A stretch of 64,000 nucleotides of DNA from Kastovskya adunca ATA6-11-RM4 (GTDB lineage: Bacteria > Cyanobacteriota > Cyanobacteriia > Cyanobacteriales > Coleofasciculaceae). Below are positions 17,891-30,246 of the stretch, in pieces; within the stretch, counting starts at the first letter, position 1; the number at the start of each line of letters is the position of its first letter. Location: assembly GCA_019359445.1 (NCBI GenBank), contig JAHHHJ010000004.1, positions 124,001-188,000 on the forward strand. The letters are read 5' to 3'. Under the pieces are notes generated by a model that saw only the letters and a list, made by a program, of their open reading frames with translations, was not told the origin of the DNA and did not search any database. Position numbers and translations under genes: made by a program.

Positions 17891-19213
17891 TTATTTCTGG
17901 TGTCGGGCACAATTATCGCAAGTGCCACACTCAAGCCCCGCCGCTTCCTGGGTAAAGCCAAAGGCACCCAGTAAAAATTGCCAGCGGCATTTGCGAGTTG
18001 TCAGGTACTGAGTCATCTGCGACTGCACTTGCTGCTGGCTACTACTAATTTGAGCAAATCCCTGGGATGATTTTGAGGGATGTTTGCGGTAGTGAAAAGG
18101 GTCAAGCCATTGTAACTGACCTGCACTATGTAACAAAGCCAGCGCGATCGCCCCTTCACGAAATTGCTTAGACACGGTTGCCACTTCCCCTTGGTTGGGA
18201 AGTTGTTTCGCTAGCCGTTGGGCGTCCTGATACTGCTTTTGCAACTTCTCGCTAAAAAACTGCTGTCGCTGCTTATCTTCCGGATTTAACCATCCTGTCG
18301 GTTCGCTTACCAAGGTCAACGCGTCCGAAGGCTTCCCATCTCGTCCGCCGCGTCCGACTTCCTGGATATACTCAGATAGCAGATGAGGCGCTTGGAAATG
18401 TACTACCCAACGGACATCGGATTTGTTAATCCCCATGCCAAAGGCGCAGGTACAAATCGCAAACTCAGTCTTCCCACCTAACCAATTGGCTTCAATTTGC
18501 CGCCGTTCCTCCGCACTCAAGCCTGCATGGTAAGCAACAGTTGCATGACCCAACTTTTGCAACCACTGGGCTAACTCCTCGCTATCGCGGCGCGTGCGGA
18601 CGTAAACTAATCCCGTTTGTTGGGGTCTAGCTTGAATAAACTTTAATAACTGCTGGCGGCGTCCTCTAGGCGTCCACACAGTTTGCACCTTGAGATTGAG
18701 GTTTTGCCGCAAGGGGCTGATCAGGAAGGTATTGGGGTGTTGCAGTTGCAGGACATGGCGAATCGTTTGCTGGGCGGTGGGATCGGCAGTGGCGGTAAAG
18801 GCAGCGATCGCGATTTTTGTCCCGACTGGCTTACACTTCAGTAAAGCAGGTCGTACCGCCCCCAAACGCCGATAAGCAGGACGAAAGGTATCGCCCCACT
18901 GCACCAAACAATGCGCCTCATCCAAAATCAAGCCGTTAATCTTCAACTGCGGCTGACACAATCGTTCCCATACAGGCGGACTGAGTAAGGTTTCCGGCGA
19001 TAGATACAGCAATCGTAATCGCTGCTGTTCCAAAGCCTGTAGCGTCCGCTTCCGTTCCCACGTTGGCAGTTCGCTATGCAACAGTGCCGCTGGCAACCTT
19101 AACTGGCGCAACTCCTGCACTTGATTTTCCATCAACGCCACCAAGGGCGAAACCACCAGCGTCAGCCCCGTTTGCAGCAGGGCAGGTAGTTGAAAGCAAA
19201 CCGACTTTCCCCC
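17891..19213 (-). pseudogene. recQ: RecQ DNA helicase, C-terminal part of split gene
   Basis: This is the larger part of a RecQ-family ATP-dependent 3'-5' DNA helicase. The frame opens upstream of the ATG at 19156, running back through LVVSPLVALMEN, QLPALLQTG and GGKSVCF to 19213, inside motif I (Walker A). Present are DEAH (motif II), AFTATAD (III), QEVGRGGRDG (VI) and a C-terminal zinc-binding C...CGTCDNC set. The missing first 50 residues lie at 30,247-30,400 on the same strand. An ATG-started product would lack the Walker A lysine and could not hydrolyse ATP. It is therefore called disrupted. Confidence 0.88.
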
Positions 19214-19218
19214 AGCAC

Positions 19219-19230
19219 TTATCTATAGCG
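19219..19230 (+). repeat. direct repeat copy 1 (TTATCTATAGCG)
   Basis: TTATCTATAGCG, five bases inside the island's left boundary, is repeated exactly at 20856-20867 in the same orientation, and similar bases (GAAATC) follow both copies. It may mark the ends of a nested insertion carrying the methyltransferase and the two following small frames. Confidence 0.5.
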
Positions 19231-19301
19231 GAAATCCTAAAACCCATTTGGGGCAAGACTTTTACTTTGTAGAGATATAAACAAAGAAAAGGTGCGTCAC
19301 C

Positions 19302-19454
19302 ATGGTGTTTGGCTCAGATAGTGCAGAGTATCAGCTCAGTAGCAGCGCTTTAGGACCTATTGGAGGTAAGCTCTCCTACTATCAAGAACTACCAACAGGA
19401 AAGTTATTGGATTTTTGGTATATTTATTTAAAACCTCAGACAAAAAAGAGGTGA
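19302..19454 (+). CDS. small hypothetical ORF near island end
   Basis: A 50-residue frame, MVFGSDSAEYQLSSSALGPI..., ending LKPQTKKR. No family is recognised. Its stop codon overlaps a GTG (sequence AGGTGA), which opens the next frame, so the two may be translationally coupled or may be one gene broken by a frameshift. Evidence is limited to the open frame and the overlap. Confidence 0.3.
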   Translation: MVFGSDSAEYQLSSSALGPIGGKLSYYQELPTGKLLDFWYIYLKPQTKKR

Positions 19455-19588
19455 GAAAGAAGCTAAACAAATGGTTATACACAAAAACTAGACCAAGATT
19501 TTATGTTGAGCTAAAACCAGATTTACACTTAGCCTATGCCGAGCAGCGAGGAGACATGGTAGTCAGCATTGGTGGCAATCATTTTTAA
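19451..19588 (+). CDS. small hypothetical ORF, coupled to preceding frame
   Basis: A 45-residue basic frame from GTG at 19451 (VRKKLNKWLYTKTRPRFYVEL) to TAA at 19586. It overlaps the preceding stop by four bases. It could be a separate small protein or the shifted second half of one roughly 95-residue protein. No known domain is visible. Confidence 0.3.
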   Translation: MRKKLNKWLYTKTRPRFYVELKPDLHLAYAEQRGDMVVSIGGNHF

Positions 19589-19620
19589 ATGAAAGATGGA
19601 AAGCAAGGGTAGGTCTAGGT

Positions 19621-20382
19621 ATGGCAGCAGAAAGCTACATCTCTGAAAATTCCTACAAAGCTTCCTTGTTTGCCCAGTTCTATGATTGGATCGTTGAACG
19701 GCTAGGCAGAGGAGATGCGTATTCAGAGATAGTAAAATTTTATGCGGAGCAGTTCGGCGATCCAATCTTGGAACTGGGGTGTGGCACTGGGCGTCAGATT
19801 CTTCCATTGGCAGAGAGAGGTTACTCGGTAACAGGTGTAGACTACTCCCCAGCAATGTTAAGCGTCTTTGAGCAGAAGCTTGGCAACGCTGTGCCAGAAG
19901 TGAGGGAGAAGGTTCAATTAATGCTTGGCGACATGACAAACCCGCCTATCAACCAAGGTAATTTTCGCCTAATCATCTTCATTGCTAGTCAGCTTTTGCA
20001 TCTCAATAATGATGAACAGCGACTTGCTTGCCTAAAAAATAGCTGCAACCTGCTTGCTGAAGGCGGGGTTATATTTATAGGTAATTCAAAGCTTGAAAGA
20101 GAATCTCGCTCTTGGGAAGACTACTCCCAGCCTGACGATACATGGACACTTCAAGTGCGTCTCAAGAGAGAAGATGGCGTTCATCAAGAAGATTTTAAGC
20201 TTACTCCAAAATCTCAAGAGCAACAAGAAGTTTTATTTGAACCTGGATGGTGTCTCTACTCTATTGAAGACATCCACATGAGGGAATTGATAGAACGGGC
20301 TGGTCTAAGATGTATCCCTCTGCTGCCAAATTGTCCTACGATATCGACTTCCAATTTTTATTTGTGTGAAAAAAAAGCTTGA
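19621..20382 (+). CDS. class I SAM-dependent methyltransferase (island cargo)
   Basis: A 253-residue methyltransferase. The SAM-binding motif I is ILELGCGTGRQIL (residues about 49-61), followed by VTGVDYSPAML and a FRLIIFIASQLLHL segment in the place of motif IV. The C-terminal part holds a beta-rich region (TLQVRLKREDGVHQEDFKL) common in small-molecule methyltransferases. The substrate is unknown. It lies near the left end of the recQ island and is not similar by eye to the methyltransferases at 15.6 or 31 kb. Confidence 0.8.
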   Translation: MAAESYISENSYKASLFAQFYDWIVERLGRGDAYSEIVKFYAEQFGDPILELGCGTGRQILPLAERGYSVTGVDYSPAMLSVFEQKLGNAVPEVREKVQLMLGDMTNPPINQGNFRLIIFIASQLLHLNNDEQRLACLKNSCNLLAEGGVIFIGNSKLERESRSWEDYSQPDDTWTLQVRLKREDGVHQEDFKLTPKSQEQQEVLFEPGWCLYSIEDIHMRELIERAGLRCIPLLPNCPTISTSNFYLCEKKA

Positions 20383-20532
20383 GACAGCAGCTTTGGTTCA
20401 GTCGCTAGCCTTAGTTAGCTTTCCAATGTTGTTTGGTTACATAGCTTGGACGGTTCATAGCTTATTTCAGCAAATTTTATCTTTGGGGCAAGTAAATCGC
20501 TAGATTGAGAAGCAAACTTTATTTACATATTT

Positions 20533-20838
20533 ATGGGCATAGGTAACACCACTCAAATACTGTTATGCCAGTTGCAAGTGCAACTGCTCCACATTTCGCT
20601 TCTCAGTGCATCCGCAAAAGACCCGCGACTTGAACAGGTAAAGGCTCCTTACCCAGAAGGCTCTGCTGAAGCGAAAGATTATGCTCAGGGATGGATTGAC
20701 CTTATAGATTTCTATGACCCAGATAAGGAGCGCGATCGCCCTGAATACAATTCTGATGCCAGCTACCACTATAAAGAAGGTTGGAGAGATGCTGCTGTAG
20801 TTTGGAATAAAGACTGTTTTTATTGCCCTCCGCTGTAG
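20533..20838 (+). CDS. hypothetical protein (island cargo)
   Basis: A 101-residue protein with a hydrophobic N-terminal third (ILLCQLQVQLLHISLLSAS) and a hydrophilic, aromatic-rich remainder (YAQGWIDLIDFYDPDKERD, YHYKEGWRDAAVVW). The repeated YxxGWxD pattern (residues about 51-56 and 82-88) suggests a small repeat fold. No family recognised. A HIP1 octamer lies within it, unlike most of the island to the right. Confidence 0.45.
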   Translation: MGIGNTTQILLCQLQVQLLHISLLSASAKDPRLEQVKAPYPEGSAEAKDYAQGWIDLIDFYDPDKERDRPEYNSDASYHYKEGWRDAAVVWNKDCFYCPPL

Positions 20839-20855
20839 GGGCAAGATAACGAAAA

Positions 20856-20867
20856 TTATCTATAGCG
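20856..20867 (+). repeat. direct repeat copy 2 (TTATCTATAGCG)
   Basis: Exact second copy of the 12-bp sequence at 19219-19230, 1.64 kb apart and in the same orientation, just after the stop of the hypothetical gene at 20838. Confidence 0.5.
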
Positions 20868-21036
20868 AAATCGATGTAACCCTTACTGAATAATCATTCT
20901 ACCTTATGGATATTTATTTAACGGTAGTGAACTATAGTAGCAGATGGAGGAAGAGGGGAAATTTGTTTAGTACAGCTAGCATCTCATTGTAGGAGAGGCG
21001 ATCATACCCACTCCGCCGCCAGTAAGGAGGTTTGCC

Positions 21037-22011
21037 ACGAAACGCGCTTGGTTAGAGATTGTTGAAAATGCTGCTCTGGTTGGCTCTGCATTAGGAACTG
21101 TCGCGGCGGCAGTCTCACAGCAAGCGGTCTATGCAGCTGCTCCCCTCACGTTAGCTCTCTGGCTCAATGCAATCAATCGGCACCGATCAGGACAACAGAT
21201 GCGGCAATATACTAAAAGCGCGATCACTGACGTGCATCAGGTTGTTCAATCCCTGCATCACCAAATCCATACGCTACCCCCAGCTGAAACCGTAGACCTC
21301 GACCCAATCAACCAGTCCCTGGAAAAGCTGGTGCAGCAGTTTGACAACCGACCAGAATTAGAGCAGATTCAAAAGTTGCAAGAAGCAATCGCATCTCTTC
21401 CCCATTCCCTAGAACTAGAGAGAGCAATCACTTGTCAGATCGAGAAATCAGTACAAGCCTTAACACTTGAGATTAATCGGCAGCTTGCAGCCATCAAGCC
21501 TTATGAGTATCGACTGGCGATTGACCGCCCTGGCAGCCGTGCTGTGTTGATGGAAGCCCTCGCTCTTGCTCAGGAACGGTTAATTTTAGTTTGTCCGTGG
21601 CCCAATCGTTATGGCATTAATTCTGAAGTGATTCAGAAGCTTGAGGAACTACTTAAGCGCAAAGTTCGCGTCGCCATCGGCTGGGGACATCTAAGGGATA
21701 TTGACCAGGCAAGTTCTAATTTTGGTTCAATCCGCCAGCGGCTTCAAGTTTCTTCCTATCTCTATAGCGCCCTGCCAAAACTGGAAAATTTAGAGCAGAA
21801 ATATCCAGACCAATTCAAACTAAAACTACTAGGTACGCATGAGAAGTTTATCGTATGCGATCACTCATGGACTATGCTGGGAAGTCATAACTTTTTGACT
21901 TCAGATACCAAAAGCACAGAGCGAGAGGTGGGTTTGAGGACTAATGACCCACGCATTATTACAGATTTGATTAAACGGTTTGACAGTGCTAAGGATCTGG
22001 AGAAGCAGTAG
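21037..22011 (+). CDS. PLD-like domain protein, apparent non-AUG start
   Basis: The first ATG is at 21199, but the frame continues coherently upstream and adds a membrane-like segment (ENAALVGSALGTVAAAVSQQA, then APLTLALWLNAI). A strong Shine-Dalgarno sequence, TAAGGAGG, ends at 21030, six bases before an in-frame ACG at 21037; no ATG, GTG or TTG occurs in frame between the stop at 20977 and 21199. From ACG the protein has 324 residues: N-terminal hydrophobic part, a coiled-coil middle, and a C-terminal phospholipase-D-like domain with one HxKxxxxD motif (HEKFIVCD). The first HKD of a full pair is not evident, so it may be catalytically altered or act as a dimer. Confidence 0.7.
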   Translation, partial: TKRAWLEIVENAALVGSALGTVAAAVSQQAVYAAAPLTLALWLNAINRHRSGQQMRQYTKSAITDVHQVVQSLHHQIHTLPPAETVDLDPINQSLEKLVQQFDNRPELEQIQKLQEAIASLPHSLELERAITCQIEKSVQALTLEINRQLAAIKPYEYRLAIDRPGSRAVLMEALALAQERLILVCPWPNRYGINSEVIQKLEELLKRKVRVAIGWGHLRDIDQASSNFGSIRQRLQVSSYLYSALPKLENLEQKYPDQFKLKLLGTHEKFIVCDHSWTMLGSHNFLTSDTKSTEREVGLRTNDPRIITDLIKRFDSAKDLEKQ

Positions 22012-22055
22012 TCCGTTAGGTTTTAGGGGAAAAGTAATCAACTAACTGCAAAAGT

Positions 22056-22430
22056 ATGCCAAAAATTCCAGAATGCGATCGCTGCCAGTTGAATCCTCGC
22101 AATCCTTCTATCGTGTGTGCCGTGCATCCCGTAGGGCCAGATAGCGATCGCTGCCTCGACTTCCGCCCCGCTGCCGAACCTCCTAAGCTGTGGGCACCAG
22201 AGGAAACGAGGTTTGTTAATGACGAACTTGTGCTGGAGCAACCAACCTATGATGGCGAACCAGTACCTGTGCCGAGGCAGCGATTCACGCTAGAGGAAAA
22301 GTTAGAGCTACTGAATTATCACCCGCTGTTTACGGGTCGGTGTCCCCACTGCGAGATGCCCTATTCAGATACTGAAACCCTAGTGCATTGGGATTGCTCT
22401 CATTGCGGCTGGATTGGCGATACGATTTAA
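22056..22430 (+). CDS. zinc-ribbon hypothetical protein
   Basis: A 124-residue soluble protein with two cysteine clusters: an N-terminal CDRC...C...C set (residues 7-33) and a C-terminal zinc ribbon CPHC ... CSHCGW (about 95-120). The middle is proline-rich and acidic. The layout is typical of short conserved cyanobacterial proteins of unknown role. It starts 45 bases after the PLD-like gene on the same strand and carries two HIP1 octamers near its 5' end, so it looks host-lineage in origin although it lies inside the island. Confidence 0.65.
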   Translation: MPKIPECDRCQLNPRNPSIVCAVHPVGPDSDRCLDFRPAAEPPKLWAPEETRFVNDELVLEQPTYDGEPVPVPRQRFTLEEKLELLNYHPLFTGRCPHCEMPYSDTETLVHWDCSHCGWIGDTI

Positions 22431-22663
22431 AATTTCAATTGTCGCTATCTGCGCCGTATCTCAGCTACATTGAAGATTTTTGATTAGGCATAAGAGAAAC
22501 AGACAAAAAAATACTTTTGGTGGGTTTTAATAGTTGAGAGCAAATGCTTCCCTCCTCAGATTTGGCACTAACACCGTTAGACAAGCAAAGATTTGGTGAA
22601 GTTTCTGTTTTTTTGGCTTGGGAAGGGACACATTAATTAAGTAAGCCCAACTACGAAAGAAGA

Positions 22664-22897
22664 ATGAAAATTATCTACGGTTTACTAGCGGTATTGATTA
22701 CCGTTTTGGCGATCGCCTTCCATCCACAGGTAACAAATGCCCAAAGTAAATGCGATCCAGCCTACCCAGACGTATGTATCCCATCGCCACCCCCGGATTT
22801 AGACTGCGGTGACATTAGCCATCGGAATTTCAAAGTACTACCCCCTGACCCTCACAGATTCGATCGAGATAAAGATGGGATTGGTTGCGAGGCTTAG
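22664..22897 (+). CDS. secreted excalibur-like small protein
   Basis: A 77-residue exported protein: signal peptide (MKIIYGLLAVLITVLAIAF...TNAQS) and a short mature part with four cysteines ending in DPHRFDRDKDGIGCEA. That end matches the excalibur calcium-binding motif (DxDxDGxGCE), an EF-hand-like loop found in extracellular bacterial proteins. The mature part is only about 50 residues and has no other domain, so it probably acts as a binding module rather than a nuclease. Confidence 0.7.
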   Translation: MKIIYGLLAVLITVLAIAFHPQVTNAQSKCDPAYPDVCIPSPPPDLDCGDISHRNFKVLPPDPHRFDRDKDGIGCEA

Positions 22898-23015
22898 AGC
22901 GCTAGCACTTAAAAGCGACATTAAGCCCTGCCTAGCTAGCTGGGCTTTCCTTCTCAGAAATGTTCATATTAGGGTGACGGTGGGGAAAACTAAACTCATC
23001 TTTACTGGGTGCATC

Positions 23016-23204
23016 ATGACAAAGGAACTCTCAGGCGTGCGCTGGAAACGAGTAACATTGACCACTCTCGCTGGACTACTGATAGTTTTGGCGGCAACGA
23101 CTGCCTACCATCAATGGAGAAAGCAAAATGGCTGGTGCGTGCAATTTTCGCCAGACGGCAGCCAAAAGGTGCTTTATGGAAGTGATTGTGGTTTTTCTAA
23201 GTAA
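23016..23204 (+). CDS. small single-pass membrane protein
   Basis: A 62-residue protein from the ATG at 23016 (MTKELSGVRWKRVTLTTLAG): one hydrophobic helix (about residues 14-32) and a short exterior part with two cysteines (WCVQFSPDGSQKVLYGSDCGFSK). The longer frame from 22809 overlaps the excalibur gene and is less likely. No family recognised. Confidence 0.5.
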   Translation: MTKELSGVRWKRVTLTTLAGLLIVLAATTAYHQWRKQNGWCVQFSPDGSQKVLYGSDCGFSK

Positions 23205-23445
23205 AGACTGCTAACTACTTGTTCACATATCTACAAAGTCACAAAATGTGGTAAGTATATCAAAATCGTTTGGGTTAAGACGTTTTAAATACTGAAAAGC
23301 CGAAAAAGCCTATGGTGTAATCGTTTGAGCGTTTGCTTGAGTTTAAACTCGCTTAAATAAACACTACAATACGAATATATTAATCAAATCCATCGTAGAT
23401 TTGGCTAAGGTCAGTTAAAGTTACACTGTTTAAGTCTTAGTAGAG

Positions 23446-24438
23446 ATGAATCTTCCTGATATCCCCTCTCCGTTCAAGCAATGTATTCAAGATGTATCAG
23501 AAAACTTGAGAGCTGATGTACTGCTCTTCAGTGCTGATATTGATTATGAAAGCGCTGATGTATTAATTGAGCTTATTAGAGGGGTTAAGAATAGAAGAGA
23601 AAATGTTGCTTTAGTACTATCAACATATGGGGGAGATCCAGATGCCGCTTACAGAATAACTAGAATTTTACAAGATAAGTATAAAAAATTCTTTCTTTTA
23701 GTTTTTGGATTTTGTAAAAGTGCGGGAACATTAATTGCTCTAGGGGCAGACGAAATAGTAATGTCTGACTTTGCTGAACTTGGACCTCTTGATGTTCAAG
23801 TCTATAGAGATGATGATTTTAGAAGAAGCTCAGGACTTGATATTCAACAAGCATTGAATGTGCTTAGTATTCAAGTTTTTGAAGTTTTTGAAACCAGTTT
23901 TCTAAGCACAATTAACAGAGGTAGTGGAGTAATTACTACTAAGACAGCGGCTGATATTGCAAGTTCTATGGCTGTTGGATTACTTGCTCCAATTTCTAGT
24001 CAAATAGATCCTCTCCGATTAGGAGAGATGAATAGAGTCATGAGTATCGCTCATGAATATGGGAAAAGGTTGAACCCTACAAAACCAGAGACTATAAATA
24101 AACTTGTTTCCGGCTATCCATCACATAGTTTTGTGATTGATTATGAAGAAGCAAAAGAACTTTTTGAGGTAGTTAGACGACCCAACGATTGCGAGCAACA
24201 ACTGGAAAGATTTTTTTCAAAAGCCACTCGTGCATCTGGATCGCAGATGTTGATAAGCGATTTGACAGCTTGGTTAGACCCAGCTTTTGACGAAGGATTA
24301 GAGGGAGAGAATCATGGAAGCGAGAATACTGGCATCGAAAATCCGTCAGGAACAGATCAAGGAAACAGCAGAGAGAATGGCGAAGTTCAAAGAAATAGCA
24401 TACTCACAGGAGCTGATAACGAAGCCCAAGAAGAATAA
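23446..24438 (+). CDS. SppA/ClpP-fold serine protease (SDH type)
   Basis: A 330-residue protein with the crotonase/ClpP-like protease fold of the SppA and serine-dehydrogenase-proteinase group. STYGGDPDAAYRI (residues 59-71) is the oxyanion-side loop, and FCKSAGTLIALGADEIVMSD (89-108) carries the probable nucleophile Ser92, followed by AELGPLDVQ. The first 290 residues are the catalytic and helical part; the last 40 are a low-complexity Glu/Asn/Gly tail. It has no signal peptide, so it is likely cytosolic. The gene is AT-rich with no HIP1 sites, unlike flanking host genes, consistent with transfer. Its 3' end overlaps a second frame (24314-24487). Confidence 0.8.
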   Translation: MNLPDIPSPFKQCIQDVSENLRADVLLFSADIDYESADVLIELIRGVKNRRENVALVLSTYGGDPDAAYRITRILQDKYKKFFLLVFGFCKSAGTLIALGADEIVMSDFAELGPLDVQVYRDDDFRRSSGLDIQQALNVLSIQVFEVFETSFLSTINRGSGVITTKTAADIASSMAVGLLAPISSQIDPLRLGEMNRVMSIAHEYGKRLNPTKPETINKLVSGYPSHSFVIDYEEAKELFEVVRRPNDCEQQLERFFSKATRASGSQMLISDLTAWLDPAFDEGLEGENHGSENTGIENPSGTDQGNSRENGEVQRNSILTGADNEAQEE

Positions 24439-24487
24439 AATTTCAGACAAAACACTTTTGCAAATACTAATTCAATCTCAACAGTAA
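24314..24487 (+). CDS. small basic protein overlapping the protease gene
   Basis: A 57-residue frame (MEARILASKIRQEQIKETAE...) starts at an ATG preceded by GGGAGAGA, a strong ribosome site, and overlaps the last 125 bases of the protease gene in another frame. The product is helical and basic at its C-terminal half (KPKKNKISDKTLLQILIQSQQ). The good start signal and the low-complexity nature of the overlapped protease tail suggest that this frame is translated. It may be a partner of the protease. No known family. Confidence 0.5.
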   Translation: MEARILASKIRQEQIKETAERMAKFKEIAYSQELITKPKKNKISDKTLLQILIQSQQ

Positions 24488-24613
24488 CTAGTGGACTAGA
24501 TAAAGCAGAGGGCTGAGAAATTCCAACTTTGAAGAAATCAACTGTTAGCTTTCTTGACATATTGATGCTTATGTTAAGGAACGAAAGTTGTATTACTATG
24601 GATGTGCAATCTG

Positions 24614-24680
24614 TGGACGGCAGGGGAATCGAACCCCTCAGACCGGGATTAGGAGTCGCCACTGGCACCATGCGCCGCCC
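24614..24680 (-). tRNA. degenerate tRNA-like gene (Arg-CCU-like or armless)
   Basis: A 67-base sequence with a full 7-bp acceptor stem (GGGCGGC with GCCGTCC, one G-U), discriminator A, and a perfect T arm (AGGGG-TTCGATT-CCCCT). Between them there are only 35 bases, too few for normal D and anticodon arms. One reading gives an anticodon loop CTCCTAA (CCU, arginine) on a poorly paired stem. Another aligns AGTGGCGACTCCTA with the variable arm of the tRNA-like gene at 25550, which would mean no anticodon arm at all. No CCA is encoded. It is probably a tRNA relic or tRNA-like RNA of the island. Confidence 0.55.
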
Positions 24681-24733
24681 ATGAGAAGCTAGACGATAAA
24701 CAAAATGTTTTCGTCTAGCTTCTATCTTTGGTT

Positions 24734-25537
24734 TTAAGCTCTAAGAATCTCTTTGGTGAAGCTTGCAACCTTTACTGCTACAGAAGAACATACATCTGAA
24801 CACTCAGAGTTGCCTTGAGCGTTTACACCATTGATTTTTTGACCTGACAAATCTTCAGTGAAGGCAATCTTATTAAGTTCGCTGATAGAAGCATAGTCAC
24901 GAAAATTTTCTTTCTCTGACAAACCTTTTTGTTTCCTCAAGCCTTGGGCTGTAGTACCAAACAGCCCAATATAGGTTTTATTGGTGCAGACTGCATAGCC
25001 CTTACCAAAGACCTTATGAAATTTAAGAATGCCAGTAAATTTTCGTCGTGTAATTTTTCCTCGCACTCTAGCATCAAGCCATTCCAGTTCTTGTTGGTTG
25101 TCGTTACGCTCTACGAGGTCGGCGGCTAAGGTAATATCAGCATCCAAATAGCGTAAAACCAGTTTGGCTGCGGACTCTCGGTATTTGCGCCCCATAACGC
25201 CAGGGAGCAAACCGATGATATATGCCCAACCTTCACGATCTGTAACGGGCGTTTTTCGTTGACGCTTGCCAGTAAATTTGAAGTTCTGACATTTTGTCAG
25301 AACTTCAGGAAACTGCTTGGACAGGCGCTTCCAGACATTGTAAGGGTCTTTTTGTTGACCAATTACCTTAATCAAATCATAAACACTGCTCCGTCCGTCA
25401 GGAGTACGGCGGATGCCTGCGTTGTCTAGTTCAGGAATCACAGTCTTTAATGTATGTGCCACTTTAGCACCTCCAGAGTAGCTTGATATTTGACCACGTT
25501 GAGCTAAGATGGAGGTGTTGAACCTTAACCCCTCCAT
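24734..25537 (-). CDS. phage antirepressor-like (BRO/KilA-N type) protein
   Basis: A 267-residue protein placed between the two tRNA-like genes on the same strand. The N-terminal half resembles BRO/KilA-N-type DNA-binding domains of phage antirepressors: RSSVYDLIKVIGQQKDPYNVWKRL, then REGWAYIIGLLPGVMGRKYRESAAKLVLRYLDAD. The C-terminal half has YIGLFGTTAQGLRKQKGLSEKENFRDYASISELNKI, similar in style to the C-terminal part of such regulators. No enzymatic motif is seen. It probably regulates island genes. The family call is from pattern only, without a search. Confidence 0.5.
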   Translation of the reverse strand: MEGLRFNTSILAQRGQISSYSGGAKVAHTLKTVIPELDNAGIRRTPDGRSSVYDLIKVIGQQKDPYNVWKRLSKQFPEVLTKCQNFKFTGKRQRKTPVTDREGWAYIIGLLPGVMGRKYRESAAKLVLRYLDADITLAADLVERNDNQQELEWLDARVRGKITRRKFTGILKFHKVFGKGYAVCTNKTYIGLFGTTAQGLRKQKGLSEKENFRDYASISELNKIAFTEDLSGQKINGVNAQGNSECSDVCSSVAVKVASFTKEILRA

Positions 25538-25549
25538 CTCAAAGATGTG

Positions 25550-25645
25550 TCCGAGTTACGGGAATCGAACCCGTAGGGCTAGGAGTTGCCACTCCATTGC
25601 CGCCTAGCTTGTAACTAGGTGCGCCTACCATTACGCTCAACTCGG
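25550..25645 (-). tRNA. class II tRNA-like gene with ACA anticodon loop
   Basis: A 96-base gene that folds into a full cloverleaf: acceptor stem CCGAGTT/AACTCGG (7 of 7), a 3-bp D stem GCG/CGC with a GG-containing loop, anticodon stem CCTAG/CTAGG (5 of 5) with loop TTACAAG, a 28-base variable arm with stem GGAGT/ACTCC, T arm ACGGG-TTCGATT-CCCGT, and discriminator A. No CCA is encoded. By position the anticodon is ACA (cysteine codon UGU), which is odd for a long-variable-arm tRNA; A73 and the long arm are instead leucine-like. It lies just upstream of the antirepressor-like gene. Confidence 0.75.
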
Positions 25646-25705
25646 ATGTTAATAAGAAAAATTTTTATTCAGCTAGGCGGAGGTCTAGCTGTTTTTGCTT
25701 TTAAA

Positions 25706-26359
25706 CTACCCATCCCACTCCTCTTGAATATCAGAAGCAACACGATGGGAGGCGAAAATACCTCTTCCTACTTTTTTCCACTTTCCTTGTTCTGCTCCTA
25801 CCCTTAGCGCAACTGCGATAGAAGATCTGGCACGCTTAAAGTCTTCTCCGGATGTAGTTTCGTACAGAGATTCTGCCACTTCCGTGCTCGTTCTTGGCTC
25901 ATCATAGGACTCTAGAAGTTTCAGCAGCGCAGTTTCCTGAGTCATTTCTTTAAATTCTGGTTTTATAAAGTCTCTTGGGACAAGTTTTTCTTCGTCCTCG
26001 AAGAGCTTTATTTCTTTTTCATCATTCTCTTCATCCAACTCGTCATCTTCATCCAACTCGTCGTGGCCAAACAAGAAATTGAATGTCGATGAAAAATCGC
26101 TATTTTCTCTAGACTCAGGAATGTATTCTCTAAACTGAGGTTCTGGCGGGGTGTCTCTAGTGACAGTTTTCACTAGATTTAGGAGGAATGTGTAGTAACC
26201 CACGCTTTTCTTCAATCGCATCACAAGTGCTTTAGCTTCATCAATCTTGGGATTTCTCTTTAAAAAATCTTCTGCTTCACTAAGGTCGGCTTTTTTCTCG
26301 TTATGCTTTGTAGCGAGCCACTCGATCACTTCTGAGTGTTCTGGTTGCAAAATCTCCAT
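25706..26359 (-). CDS. winged-helix domain protein (island cargo)
   Basis: A 217-residue protein in three parts: a charged helical N-terminus (residues 1-70), an acidic linker (about 95-125, with DELDEDDELDEENDEKE), and a C-terminal winged helix (about 140-205) read from ALLKLLESYDEPRTSTEVAESLYE, RARSSIAVALRVG and GKWKKVGRGIFAS. Such a domain usually binds DNA. The acidic middle suggests protein contacts or nucleic-acid mimicry. It lies downstream of the transposition genes on the same strand and is a candidate regulator. No named family. Confidence 0.6.
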   Translation of the reverse strand: MEILQPEHSEVIEWLATKHNEKKADLSEAEDFLKRNPKIDEAKALVMRLKKSVGYYTFLLNLVKTVTRDTPPEPQFREYIPESRENSDFSSTFNFLFGHDELDEDDELDEENDEKEIKLFEDEEKLVPRDFIKPEFKEMTQETALLKLLESYDEPRTSTEVAESLYETTSGEDFKRARSSIAVALRVGAEQGKWKKVGRGIFASHRVASDIQEEWDG

Positions 26360-26478
26360 CTAGGGCATTCCACGTCAAGTTGAACGTTGATCCGGGCAAC
26401 GATTAGATGCTATAATCCTTACAAATAAAGAATCGTGCCTCTCTTTGAATAAAAGAGAAGTCGATTTTAAATATAAGA

Positions 26479-26540
26479 AAGAGGAGTCGGCGGTCACGTC
26501 TCGGGTGTGCAAAATCAGAGAGGATGCCGATTCCTTCTTT
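26479..26540. repeat. hairpin-forming inverted repeat
   Basis: GGAGTCGGC (26483-26491) pairs with GCCGATTCC (26526-26534), one G-T, and flanking purine/pyrimidine tracts (AAGAAAGA and TTCTTT) extend the stem. The loop is about 34 bases. It lies between the tnpC-like stop and the winged-helix gene and may end or process the transposition transcript. Confidence 0.5.
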
Positions 26541-26613
26541 TAGGATAGCTGATGGAAAGAAGGATGGTCAATTTTACATTGAAGAAATTTCCCAATTTAG
26601 AGAACTTCCTTCT

Positions 26614-27459
26614 TTACTCTAATTTCTCCAAAGGATATTCAGCCAACATCTCCTCAAAGGGTATCCATCCGTCATCGGCCGTTAAAACGCATTGAACTCC
26701 GTCAATGAACATTGAAGCTTCTACTATCTTTTTGGATTTAGCTAGGGGATACCAATCATTGAAGAGATCCAGCTCTACTTTCTGCTCGTAAACTTCGTTT
26801 GGCTTCCAGTGATCGCTAACGGCACTGACAAAAAAACCAGACGGGTTATTAGCTCTGTTCTTTAACACAGCTTCTCTTAGAGACTCAAGAGCGATCGCGA
26901 CGACATCAGAGGGCGCGTCTCGAAGTAGCCGTCTGATGGTTGAATTGAGTTCAACTCCGAGACCTCGAACCTCTGCCTCAAGGTCTGAAATATCTGATGA
27001 GAAAATCTGACTAGTATTGCTTGCTGAAACCTGCTGCTTTAGACGGTCGTTCTCAGCCTGTAATCTCCCGATCTGTTGTCGCAGTGAATTGACCTCAATC
27101 ACCTGCCCATAAGCGACTTCATTCTGCTTTCTCAACATCTTGACTTCAGACTCTAGCTGCTTGATGCGTTCCCGCAAAGTGCGAATTAGTGTGTCTTTAG
27201 AGGCATCAGATGCTCGTTGCTTTGGTTCTGGCTTTTGCTTTGTTCTTTGCTGCCGTAACTGCTCAATCCGTTCTTTAATCTCTAATTCCTTGTATAAAAA
27301 GGCTTTACTAACATCTGCTGTTTGAGCAACTGTGTTGAAGTTGATAGGCTTACCATCCTTTAGTAATTCCCGGATGCCTTTCTCAACTTTTTCTAGAGCT
27401 TCCTGGCGCTTCTTTTGAGCATTTTGGCGTAGACCGTTAACATTACGACTTATTGCCAT
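26614..27459 (-). CDS. tnpC: TnpC-like coiled-coil protein (DUF6262 type)
   Basis: About 281 residues from the ATG at 27459 (MAISRNVNGLRQNAQKKRQEA), which overlaps the end of the tnpB-like gene by 17 bases. The N-terminal 70 residues have a helix-turn-helix (INFNTVAQTADVSKAFLYKE) typical of TnpC/DUF6262 accessory proteins of Tn554-family elements. A long coiled coil (about 70-160) follows, then a C-terminal domain of about 120 residues not seen in the short TnpC of Tn554. It is expected to assist the two recombinases. Confidence 0.75.
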   Translation of the reverse strand: MAISRNVNGLRQNAQKKRQEALEKVEKGIRELLKDGKPINFNTVAQTADVSKAFLYKELEIKERIEQLRQQRTKQKPEPKQRASDASKDTLIRTLRERIKQLESEVKMLRKQNEVAYGQVIEVNSLRQQIGRLQAENDRLKQQVSASNTSQIFSSDISDLEAEVRGLGVELNSTIRRLLRDAPSDVVAIALESLREAVLKNRANNPSGFFVSAVSDHWKPNEVYEQKVELDLFNDWYPLAKSKKIVEASMFIDGVQCVLTADDGWIPFEEMLAEYPLEKLE

Positions 27460-29038
27460 CAACCTTACCCTCCAGTCCTGCAATTATTTTCTTCAAATTG
27501 TTTTTGACGGTTTCGTTCATCTCAACCTGCCGAACCCAACCGTTAGCTTGTGCTTTTTCAATGAGCCTTTCTATTTGCCCAAGTTGCTTCTTGTGTTCTG
27601 ATAAATACTCTGAGGTCGTCCGAAAATGGGTACAAGTTAGACAGGCATTAGCATGAGGGCACCCCTGAGAAATAGTGGGTAGGGCACAAGAACCATTAGG
27701 CAGGGCTTGAGCTTGGATATTGCGTTTAAACCATTGCAAGTCAGCAACCTCAACTTCGGGCGCAATCGACTCAACAATCTGGCCAGCAATGTTAATGACC
27801 TTGCCTTGGAACTTGGCGATCTCAGCTTTCATCGTTTTGTCATGAATGAAAGCATAAGTTGCTGTCATTTCAGGTGACTCGTGCCCCAAATAGCGCTGGA
27901 TGATGTGCTGTGGAACCCCATTGTTGATCATCCGAGTCCCTACTGTATGTCTAAATTGGTGCATCTGAAATCGCCACAACTTGCCACTTTCGTCGCAGAT
28001 ATTATGCTTTTTAGCTAAATTATTAAGGAATCGTGCAAAAGATTCACGAATCATCGGTTTTGGTCTTGGTCGAAACCCTGAAGGGCCACTAAAACTTGAG
28101 CAGAATAGATACTCATAGGAATCGCCTAAATGCTCTTGAATATAGCAGCGTTGCTCCTGAATAACTCGAACAACTTCTCGACTAACAGGAATGGTAAGTT
28201 CCTTTTTCATCTTGAATTGGTAGTACCGTAGGAACCAGTCACCCGCTTTGTCTTGCAGCAGGCAATCAGGCTTTAAGTACAGTAGTTCAGAGACCCGCAT
28301 TCCACATTCAATAATGACCAATGTCATACGCATGACGGGTTCTGGCAGGTCATCAATATAGGCGGTGAGCTGAGCCATGACACCTTCTGGAATGTATCTA
28401 GGTAAGGCTTTAGGTCGCTTGGGGTAATCCTCTTTGCGAATCAAATACCTTATGACAGGCAACCATTCGTTTTGATAGCAAAGGTCTAAGAAATCCCGCA
28501 TATTACATAGGAAATGCGATATAGTGGTTGGCTTTGAATGTTTAGCTGCCAAGTAAGCCAGAAAATCAATAATGACAGCTCGGTCTAGTTGCGTTGGTTC
28601 AAGCGATGGGTATTGTTCGCTCAAGAAATCGGAAAACTTTTTGAGTGATCCTAGTTTGTTCAGGGCAGAACTAAAGCTTTGCGTACTTAGTGTCAACTTG
28701 ATATACGCCTTTGCTGGCTTAAGCAACCAAGACTGGGAAATACCCTTGAAATTCAAGGTGTAGGCTTGCTTTCCCTTGCCTGGATCAATACCCAATCTTC
28801 GACAATCCCAAATTTCCTTTTGGTATTCATCTTCAGGATTAATGTCGAATAACTTAACTATTTGGGGAATAAAAACACGATTACAACTTTTGCAACGATA
28901 TTGTTGGTTGCCAGAGCTGCGATGCTTGCCCCCTTTAATGCAATTTTTGCTACCGCAATGAATACATAGGACTGAACCTTCTATTGATTTTTGCCTATGT
29001 GGATAAGCTCTCTTCTGAATCTTTTGTTGTGTTGACAT
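27443..29038 (-). CDS. tnpB: tyrosine recombinase, TnpB-like
   Basis: A 531-residue site-specific recombinase. The N-terminus has a zinc ribbon (CIHC at 25-28 and CKSC at 49-52), then a SAM-like core-binding domain, then the catalytic domain with Arg248 (ECGMRVSELL), His360-x-x-Arg363 (HQFRHTVGTRM), His386 (YLGHESPEM) and Tyr395. A cysteine-rich C-terminal segment (CPHANACLTC) follows. All catalytic residues are present. It overlaps the tnpA-like gene by 44 bases and the tnpC-like gene by 17, so the three are co-translated, as in Tn554. Confidence 0.85.
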   Translation of the reverse strand: MSTQQKIQKRAYPHRQKSIEGSVLCIHCGSKNCIKGGKHRSSGNQQYRCKSCNRVFIPQIVKLFDINPEDEYQKEIWDCRRLGIDPGKGKQAYTLNFKGISQSWLLKPAKAYIKLTLSTQSFSSALNKLGSLKKFSDFLSEQYPSLEPTQLDRAVIIDFLAYLAAKHSKPTTISHFLCNMRDFLDLCYQNEWLPVIRYLIRKEDYPKRPKALPRYIPEGVMAQLTAYIDDLPEPVMRMTLVIIECGMRVSELLYLKPDCLLQDKAGDWFLRYYQFKMKKELTIPVSREVVRVIQEQRCYIQEHLGDSYEYLFCSSFSGPSGFRPRPKPMIRESFARFLNNLAKKHNICDESGKLWRFQMHQFRHTVGTRMINNGVPQHIIQRYLGHESPEMTATYAFIHDKTMKAEIAKFQGKVINIAGQIVESIAPEVEVADLQWFKRNIQAQALPNGSCALPTISQGCPHANACLTCTHFRTTSEYLSEHKKQLGQIERLIEKAQANGWVRQVEMNETVKNNLKKIIAGLEGKVDGNKS

Positions 29039-30128
29039 CTGTTCGGCTCTCTAAATATTTTTGATACTCGTGTTTCATGTCTTCGTTGGTGACATGAACG
29101 TAGGTGTCTATAGTCGTCTGGATGCTGGCGTGCCCCAGTCGCTTCTGGACATATGCCATTTCCACTCCCTCACGGATCAACTCGGTCGCGTGAGTATGTC
29201 TGAGCATGTGAGGGTGAATCGCGATGCCAGTCTTCCTCTTGAGCCGATTGAATAAGTCCATGGCAGTGCCGTAGGTCATTGGGGCACCAATCCTGCCTTC
29301 CCAAAGGTTTACAAACACGTAGTCGCTTAGATCGTCGCCCAGTATTTCCATAAACTCTTCTTGCAAGTACTGACTGTAAAGCCCCATCAACTCTTTTGTG
29401 ACGTGAATTGTATTCGGATCTTTGCTTTTTGAGCGAACCCCGTTTGCGTTATTGGCTCTTGGCACAATTTGAATCTGATTGTCCCAAGACTGAATGTCTT
29501 CGTGGCGAAGTCCTAATGCTTGCCCTATACGTATTCCGCTTTCGTGAAGCAAGCACAGCAAAAACTTATCTCTAACTCGGTGACAGGCATCAAAAAGCTG
29601 CTGTACCTGTTCTTGAGAAACTGTTTTTGGTGTGCGTCTTGGAACCTTAAGTTTTAGTAGTCTTGCTTGGGTAGGTTTGCCTTTCGTAATGTGATGCAAG
29701 AAGCCTTTGTATCTTCGACCTGGCATGACGCGAGATCTATAAAGAGGGATATGAGGCACCTTGCCAGCCTTTTCGTGGAAGTCGTAGAGCATACAGACTG
29801 AAGTCAAAATCGCGTTGACAGTTGATTCGGTTCTTTTTGCTTCTTGCTCATGAATCGAAAGCACGTCTTTAGGTGCTGGGATTCTAAGCCACGACATGAA
29901 GTCGGCAAGTTCAACTACATTGATCGCTGCCCAATCTAAATCCCTGCTTTGCAAATATTCCCAATACAGCTTGAGATGAAATGCATAAGCTTTGACGGTG
30001 TTAGGGGAACGCTCAATATTTCGCAAGTAAGTCAGATACTCTTCAACTGGCTCAACTGGCAAAAAGTCATCTCCTAGCACCGTCCAAGTTACTTGCTCAG
30101 ATGGAAGTCTAACTCTCTGTACCTTCAC
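28995..30128 (-). CDS. tnpA: tyrosine recombinase, TnpA-like
   Basis: A 377-residue tyrosine recombinase with an N-terminal core-binding domain (residues about 25-125) and a catalytic domain with Arg200 (HESGIRIGQALGL), His307-x-x-Arg310 (HPHMLRHTHAT), His333 (RLGHASIQTT) and Tyr343. All are intact. It is the first gene of the trio and starts only about 120 bases from the junction with the recQ N-terminal fragment, the position tnpA takes in Tn554. Together with the TnpB-like and TnpC-like proteins it probably inserted the island. Confidence 0.87.
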   Translation of the reverse strand: MKVQRVRLPSEQVTWTVLGDDFLPVEPVEEYLTYLRNIERSPNTVKAYAFHLKLYWEYLQSRDLDWAAINVVELADFMSWLRIPAPKDVLSIHEQEAKRTESTVNAILTSVCMLYDFHEKAGKVPHIPLYRSRVMPGRRYKGFLHHITKGKPTQARLLKLKVPRRTPKTVSQEQVQQLFDACHRVRDKFLLCLLHESGIRIGQALGLRHEDIQSWDNQIQIVPRANNANGVRSKSKDPNTIHVTKELMGLYSQYLQEEFMEILGDDLSDYVFVNLWEGRIGAPMTYGTAMDLFNRLKRKTGIAIHPHMLRHTHATELIREGVEMAYVQKRLGHASIQTTIDTYVHVTNEDMKHEYQKYLESRTDVNTTKDSEESLST

Positions 30129-30246
30129 TTTGTAGACGTTGATTACTTTAAAGAAGGGCTTTTAAATATTGTTCCACAAAGAAGTGATTTAAATTATAAT
30201 TTGTTGTTGTTTACTATAAAGATTTTAGAAAGAAGGCTGTTGTTAA

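Follow-up and report, generated by a model that had tools for sequence, protein, structure and literature searches.

A tRNA gene that combines the long variable arm of a leucine tRNA with an anticodon for a cysteine codon raises the question of what such a molecule is for, since it may misread the genetic code deliberately or work outside translation. The gene lies in a stretch of 64,000 nucleotides from the genome of the cyanobacterium Kastovskya adunca, which is referred to here as the window. Our best reading is that it belongs to a new family, whose members either mistranslate upon induction of an operon or act as structured regulatory RNAs. Between these possibilities we tentatively prefer the first, at a probability that we place a little short of even: the window tRNA would be a member of a small cyanobacterial family of dual-identity class II tRNAs, with a leucine body and a Cys, Gly or Ala anticodon, that mistranslate when the operon is on.

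A long-armed tRNA gene with the anticodon ACA

The gene and its distinguishing parts are the following:

25550–25645, minus strand: class II tRNA gene with leucine-type body, anticodon ACA and A73 (Rfam RF00005, relatives with covariation, fold z-score)
25610–25612, minus strand: anticodon ACA, which would read UGU (Rfam covariance model)
25575–25602, minus strand: variable region of 28 nt with a two-part stem, GGC...GCC and GGAGU...ACUCC (five-sequence alignment A6, pair counts)

The acceptor stem has 7 bp, the D stem 3 bp (or 4 if a G-U pair is counted), and the anticodon and T stems 5 bp each; the anticodon loop reads UUACAAG and the T loop UUCGAUU, position 73 is an A, and the 28-nt variable region forms an arm of 8 bp in two parts. 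The Rfam tRNA model (RF00005) matched the gene with 44.5 bits at E 3.3e-6 (gathering threshold 29); elsewhere among the Rfam families, none attained its gathering level in the window. Read on the minus strand, with this match and with four relatives that keep all pairs, the preliminary description of a full cloverleaf with paired stems of 7, 3, 5, 5 and 5 bp, a 28-base arm, ACA and A73 is confirmed. The covariance model set the anticodon to ACA with high posterior probability, indicating that no alternative register is favoured, and no ordinary isotype emerged in a different register. Together with the 28-nt region, this register bears out the cysteine-type anticodon on a long-arm tRNA. The 3-bp D stem had been regarded as an anomaly as well, but it is normal in leucine-type class II tRNAs, as the tRNA-Leu sequences of the same genome show.

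The fold of the tRNA was more stable than 200 of 200 shuffled sequences (z -3.95), and a scan for paired acceptor and T arms found two sites in the window and one in total across 20 base-shuffled windows (0.78 per Mb). ARAGORN made no tRNA call in the window. The tRNA carries G8 where U8, the partner of A14, is expected, and in the predicted fold the anticodon loop may close through U32-G38 and U33-A37, the G at position 38 enabling it to shrink to three bases.

At the tRNA loci examined with ARAGORN, the 5.09-Mb genome contains two ordinary tRNA-Cys(GCA) genes and tRNA-Leu genes with the anticodons UAG, GAG, CAG and CAA. That the window gene is itself an ordinary tRNA-Cys or tRNA-Leu that was misread would agree with the Rfam label, which is simply tRNA, but is scarcely credible in view of these genes elsewhere in the genome and of the register fixed by the covariance model. 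A73 and the long arm exclude an ordinary tRNA-Cys, in which U73, a GCA anticodon and a short variable loop are expected instead of A73, ACA and 28 nt. Since the ordinary tRNA-Cys(GCA) suffices to read UGU, the window tRNA is dispensable for decoding. Codon reassignment, one of the functions suggested previously, is unlikely because of the two tRNA-Cys(GCA) genes and because the anticodon varies among the relatives, which carry ACC, CGC and UGC. An att-site duplicate of a chromosomal tRNA was considered and rejected as well: the window contains a single copy of its 3' end, and the tRNA has no close copy among the 59 distinct tRNAs of the genome at the loci examined with ARAGORN. Contig C32 of the genome carries a tRNA array according to ARAGORN; among its approximately 20 genes (L032, G000:C32:36000-43200) are some with leucine anticodons (UAG, UAA) and short variable loops, possibly further conflicts between body and anticodon.

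A family of at least five members

DNA comparison with 97 genomes found no relative of the window tRNA, the only match being the sequence itself (1/97); plasmids gave no match, and phages gave only 20–24-base ends of tRNA-Gly and tRNA-Glu genes. A covariance model built from the window tRNA alone (R1) and run on 388 genomes of the class with E up to 1e-5 matched at least 24 of them. At least four of these matches have a long variable arm, namely the window (124 bits) and those in the genomes G165 (100.5 bits), G419 (58.7 bits) and G286 (55.4 bits). Among the matches listed, the next in rank was a sequence of 81 nt without a long arm in G172 (48.3 bits), and ARAGORN assigned the 20 lower matches to tRNA-Gly(UCC) (15) and tRNA-Leu (5). 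A second model (R2), built from the four long-arm sequences, exceeded 90 bits in at least one of 42 genomes of G165's order, at least two of 63 of G419's order and, for the order of the window, at least two of 388. The last two were the window (102.4 bits) and G545 (91.5 bits), a new member first found by R2, and the next score was 70.3 bits; in G545's family at least one of 14 genomes exceeded 90 bits. The genome sets searched with the two models overlap, and all counts are lower bounds, with 10 candidates scored per genome in the R1 search of the class and the R2 search of the window's order, 66–150 in the other searches, and stricter filters for sets above 40 genomes.

The family is known from at least five sequences in cyanobacterial genomes, those of the window, G165, G419, G286 and G545. 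ARAGORN called one of them, in G286, as tRNA-Ala(CGC) and missed the other four, indicating that such genes can stay unannotated or be labelled by their anticodon alone. Of 55 loci that matched the family model at 55–70 bits, ARAGORN assigned 50 at the match, all to tRNA-Leu, and left five unassigned; divergent family members are possible among these loci. The assignment of all 50 to tRNA-Leu, together with A15-U48, G18G19, A20a and A73 in the window tRNA, agrees with the earlier view that A73 and the long arm are leucine-like.

In the alignment of the five sequences (A6), for which a model of the window structure served as seed, all 140 of 140 cells (28 base pairs in five sequences) hold standard pairs, and 13 of the 28 pairs are altered on both sides. 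Control structures slid by 1–3 columns were 34–43% paired, with at most one pair changed on both sides. Four of five covariation measures lay above all 500 shuffles; the fifth, the number of pair types, was reached by 395 of 500 shuffles, a point against the dual-identity reading. We consider the evidence for covariation strong, yet not thirteen-fold independent, as the five sequences are in part related to one another and their alignment started from the window structure. The lone folds of the tRNAs from G419 (z -2.6), G286 (z -2.3) and G545 (z -2.4) were better than most shuffles, and the minimum-energy folds of those from G419 and G286 differ from the cloverleaf.

All five members have A14, A15, G18, G19, U20, A20a, U48 and A73 as well as a UUCRA T loop. 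Base 37 is A throughout, base 33 is U in four members and G in G545, and base 34 is A in two of the five. Four members have U8, and the window copy, with G8, lacks the U8-A14 pair. The variable region has 27–29 nt and a near-identical core, GGAGU...CUCC, and in its inner stem, GGAGU/RCUCC, four of the five pairs never vary. The anticodons are ACA, ACC, CGC, CGC and UGC, corresponding to Cys, Gly and Ala codons; a leucine anticodon (NAG or YAA, with A35 in common) occurs in none of the five. Between close relatives, the anticodon changes from ACA to ACC in an otherwise identical anticodon stem-loop, which suggests a fit to no particular codon and argues against a dual identity of these tRNAs.

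Neighbouring genes, hairpins and the mobile-type island

The tRNA is flanked by protein genes, hairpins and a second, shorter tRNA-like element:

24734–25462, minus strand: DdrC/KilA-N-type gene P0001, from Val26 (NCBIfam DdrC, PADLOC PDC-S13, homologues beside the tRNA)
25706–26359, minus strand: upstream gene P0002, 217 amino acids, no Pfam match
25670–25691, minus strand: upstream hairpin, 24 nt away from the tRNA
25504–25542, minus strand: hairpin AUGGAGG...CCUCCAU directly after the tRNA, with equivalents at five of five loci
24684–24723, minus strand: strong hairpin separating the DdrC-type gene from the second tRNA-like element
24614–24680, minus strand: second tRNA-like element, 67 nt, with a 7-bp acceptor stem and a 5-bp T arm and without an anticodon arm

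For P0001, whose longest open reading frame starts at 25537, we infer a GTG start from the sequence GGAGGU located 6 nt upstream and from the starts of homologues. The protein matched NCBIfam DdrC with E 2.9e-16, its 59.5 bits falling short of the cut-off of 150, and the PADLOC phage-defence candidate PDC-S13 with 51.5 bits; Pfam gave no match, and the structure model was poor (mean pLDDT 52.6). At all five loci, a gene on the same strand follows the tRNA at a distance of 83–110 nt (measured to the inferred GTG in the window). This gene is DdrC-like at four loci, with 82% (G165), 61% (G286) and 51% (G545) identity to P0001. In G419 it encodes a KilA-N protein, for which full-length homology to P0001 is not clear; both proteins match PDC-S22 of PADLOC weakly. 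DdrC-type genes are rare: a search of the class with E up to 1e-15 found them in five of 388 genomes. The tRNA stands in front of the gene in three of the five but not in G254 or G102 (broken copy), and it is also missing in front of the homologues in G095 and G084, indicating that the gene can live alone. Distant relatives of P0001 occur in two phage records and six plasmids; at three of the six plasmid sites no family tRNA was found (best score 9.0 bits), and a DdrC-type protein profile found no relative on viral contigs.

Upstream of the tRNA, a gene on the same strand lies at a distance of 35–118 nt at the four loci measured, the gene of G286 being cut by the end of the contig 243 nt upstream of the tRNA. 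A C-terminal stretch of P0002 is akin to the gene in the same position in G419 (score 74, compared with 59 for the best of 200 shuffles), and the upstream proteins of G165 and G545 showed no relation to this stretch or to each other (G286 was unscored). Pfam recognized a helix-turn-helix domain above the cut-off in G165 only (MarR) and below the threshold in G419, and P0002 appears HTH-like on reading of its sequence. The upstream hairpin is present at all five loci, although weak in G165 and overlapping the gene end in G545, and the downstream hairpin has the form AUGAAGG...CCUUCAU in G165. Within the upstream hairpin (25670–25691), the sequence CCGCCUAGC is perfectly complementary to GCUAGGCGG in the tRNA (25600–25608), which spans the end of the anticodon loop, the 3' arm of its stem and one base of the variable arm, so that an alternative fold is possible.

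This arrangement bears on the main rival explanation, according to which the tRNA-shaped domain does not decode and serves the operon in processing or regulation, a non-translational role of the kind suggested previously. RNase P and RNase Z would cut there and release the DdrC-type message from the upstream gene, and one of its two protein neighbours would bind to the variable arm and to the next hairpin. Such a role is suggested by the position between same-strand genes with the above gaps at all five loci, by the inner variable-arm stem, which is among the most conserved parts, and by the recurrence of the variable-arm motif AUGGAG...CUCC in the downstream hairpin (AUGGAG at four of five loci, AUGAAG in G165). 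The varying anticodon, G33 in G545 and the loss of U8 in the window point in the same direction. However, the tertiary core (A14, A15-U48, G18G19 and the UUCRA T loop) and A73, present in all five members, exceed the needs of a processing signal, and U33 in four and A37 in five members speak against a non-decoding role as well. We regard this explanation as a real possibility, albeit a doubtful one.

The second tRNA-like element, which comes after the DdrC-type gene, has a counterpart behind the corresponding gene of G165, with nearly identical acceptor and T arms and a changed middle part, and a third short element precedes the upstream gene of G165 (elements at L076 8975–9042 and 11159–11228, minus strand). 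The same strict scan for acceptor and T arms found none in G419, G286 and G545. Fold z-scores gave no support for the element in the window (-0.42) and weak support for those in G165 (-1.6 and -1.5). A tmRNA origin of the short elements was considered and rejected: there was no match in the window, one match in G165 was below threshold (17.6 bits, gathering threshold 47, E 2e-4), and ordinary tRNAs of the genome score equally or higher against tmRNA. Because the homology between the islands of the window and G165 stops two bases past the short element of the window, this element may mark a former element end.

The location on a mobile element that the preliminary description had assumed is supported in the sense of a mobile-type island with tyrosine recombinases and a split recQ gene:

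19213–30245, no strand assigned: island of about 11 kb, with approximate ends, that interrupts recQ at the Walker A motif
26614–27483, minus strand: DUF6262 protein (Pfam E 1.7e-16)
27443–29038, minus strand: tyrosine recombinase (Pfam Phage_integrase)
28995–30128, minus strand: tyrosine recombinase (Pfam Phage_integrase)

The N-terminal half of RecQ ends with ...ALIVLPTG near 30245 and the protein resumes with GGKSVCFQLPAL... near 19213, indicating that recQ is interrupted at Walker A by the roughly 11-kb island; the C-terminal half contains DEAD, Helicase_C and RecQ_Zn_bind domains, and the N-terminal half was recognized by reading, not by Pfam. A C-terminal recQ fragment is also located near the G165 copy (L076 7170–7718). 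Tn554-like elements consist of two tyrosine recombinases plus TnpC. We take the DUF6262 protein to be TnpC-like, and the recombinases at 27443–29038 and 28995–30128 are presumably TnpB-like and TnpA-like, respectively. Two tyrosine recombinases and a DUF6262 protein are found upstream of the tRNA in the window, by Pfam, and in G165, by homology at the DNA level and a match to DUF6262. The BLAST blocks common to both islands are 24612–25728, from the second tRNA-like element to the upstream hairpin, and the recombinase genes, and the intervening gene is unshared. A comparison of two places, the region of the second tRNA-like element and the recombinase-side end, gave no convincing repeat, and no such recombinases were seen around the tRNA in G419 and G545 in lists of open reading frames, with Pfam applied to some of them. 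The island also encodes a PLD-like protein (window 21199–22011), which matched PADLOC MkoB with 81 bits and DrmC weakly.

The mobile-type context, together with the rare and patchy occurrence (at least two of 388 genomes of the window's order) and the varying anticodon, might also fit a selfish or neutral passenger, i.e. a tRNA captured by mobile elements that is folded but functionless at present and drifting in its anticodon. We consider this improbable, as compensatory changes at 13 pairs, none of them broken, and the conserved flanking hairpins and neighbour indicate selection. The resemblance of the neighbouring proteins to the PADLOC candidates PDC-S13 and PDC-S22 could alternatively point to a counter-measure against tRNA-cutting defence or toxin enzymes, a function likewise suggested previously, with the tRNA acting as a decoy or being resistant to cutting. 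No anticodon-nuclease gene was recognized among the island genes scanned, which include one PLD-like gene from a superfamily that includes nucleases. The family tRNA was moreover not found in the searches made of phage records, plasmids and viral contigs. We consider a counter-measure very unlikely. On viral contigs, two sequence patterns returned no stretch and one stretch (L143), respectively, the latter being unrecognized by the model and without an ARAGORN tRNA.

Probable leucine identity, proposed mechanism and known systems

In E. coli, leucine identity depends on A73, the A15-U48 pair, G18G19, A20a and contacts between the D and T loops, and is independent of the anticodon and of the sequence of the variable arm, according to the part of the source available to us (PMC9976931). 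A73, A15-U48, G18G19, A20a and U54-A58 are present in all five members of the family, which are therefore probably charged with leucine, judging by identity rules that are those of E. coli and from which cyanobacterial LeuRS may differ. No synthetase gene adjoins the tRNA in any of the five genomes. In G545, the only full-length leuS of the genome is located 1.8 kb from the tRNA on the opposite strand (L137 11760–14327), probably by coincidence. LeuRS-like genes without the editing region, unlinked to the tRNA, were observed in G286 (L144 3301–5289, minus strand), where the gene adjoins the normal leuS and has an altered KMSKS motif, and in G419 (L145 3125–5036, minus strand), where it is broken into two frames. 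A dedicated LeuRS was rejected as a candidate: the G419-type gene occurs in three of 63 genomes, in two of which (G455 and G248) no family tRNA was found.

If the family consists of mistranslating tRNAs of dual identity, as we tentatively prefer, the tRNA would be an RNA cistron between the upstream gene and the DdrC/KilA-N-type gene and would be transcribed with them. RNase P and RNase Z would cut the operon transcript at the tRNA, CCA would then be added, and the LeuRS of the host would charge the tRNA with leucine, since bacterial LeuRS needs no anticodon. Induction of the operon would place leucine at UGU codons or, in the relatives, at GGU, GCG or GCA codons, and this conditional mistranslation would be governed by the neighbouring DNA-binding-type proteins. 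The lack of U8 and the closable anticodon loop in the window, G33 in G545 and the lack of a linked LeuRS argue against this reading. A more specific proposal, which we consider unlikely, is that the tRNA acts as the effector in a mobile module concerned with stress or phage defence. It would then be a leucine-charged mistranslator that, when induced, poisons translation by inserting leucine at Cys, Gly or Ala codons and is otherwise silenced by the flanking DNA-binding-type proteins, with lineages picking different codons and the variable arm doubling as a regulator site.

Compared with known tRNAs, the family shares the D arm, the tertiary core and A73 with bacterial class II tRNA-Leu and, by reading, the layout of base 44, stem, one base and U48 with tRNA-Leu(CAA). 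It differs from bacterial tRNA-Leu by the absence of a leucine anticodon from all five members and by a variable region of 27–29 nt instead of the 4–23 nt given in the accessible part of a survey that covers the tRNAs of 61 cyanobacteria (PMC5733544), from whose main text, to the same extent, ACA is absent. The selC* tRNA-Cys, which has cysteine identity, and allo-tRNAs are likewise unusual long-arm tRNAs, but their arrangement is 8/4 or their acceptor domain has 12 bp, whereas all five members of the family have 7 + 5 bp, neither 8/4 nor 9/3, together with A73; selC* carries U73 with GCA or UCA, in contrast to A73 with ACA in the window tRNA. Cyanobacterial tRNA arrays such as the Anabaena trn operon (PMC10272220, available in part) also provide extra tRNAs, and the C32 array is an example in the same genome, but the window tRNA is single, lies between protein genes and is located on a contig other than that of the array. 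In the accessible parts of open-licence papers on cyanobacterial mistranslating tRNAs, KilA-N with tRNA, tRNA-Leu with noncognate anticodons, class II tRNA-Cys and isotype mismatch, we found no account of the family.

The closest known system is tRNA-ProX of Streptomyces. In the sections of the reports that were available, tRNA-ProX (tRNA-ProA, -ProN and -ProT of Streptomyces and Kitasatospora) is described as combining a proline body with Ala, Asn or Thr anticodons (PMC11415595), as mistranslating and toxic in E. coli, and as carrying A34 and an odd base 33 (PMC11415595; PMC10365949). To that extent, both systems join a body of one isotype to several foreign anticodons across a bacterial tRNA family. 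The family described here differs by its leucine body, its class II structure and its Cys, Gly and Ala anticodons, and has A34 in only two and an odd base 33 in only one of five members. It also lacks a co-encoded synthetase variant and is paired in an operon-like manner with a DdrC/KilA-N-type gene. Mistranslation is known for tRNA-ProX and is a proposal for the present family. In the literature covered, natural bacterial tRNAs with mismatched body and anticodon are known chiefly from tRNA-ProX. If true, another such family, unrelated to tRNA-ProX and with a leucine body, several foreign anticodons and a conserved neighbour, would mean that mismatched tRNAs arise repeatedly and can belong to mobile, regulated modules.
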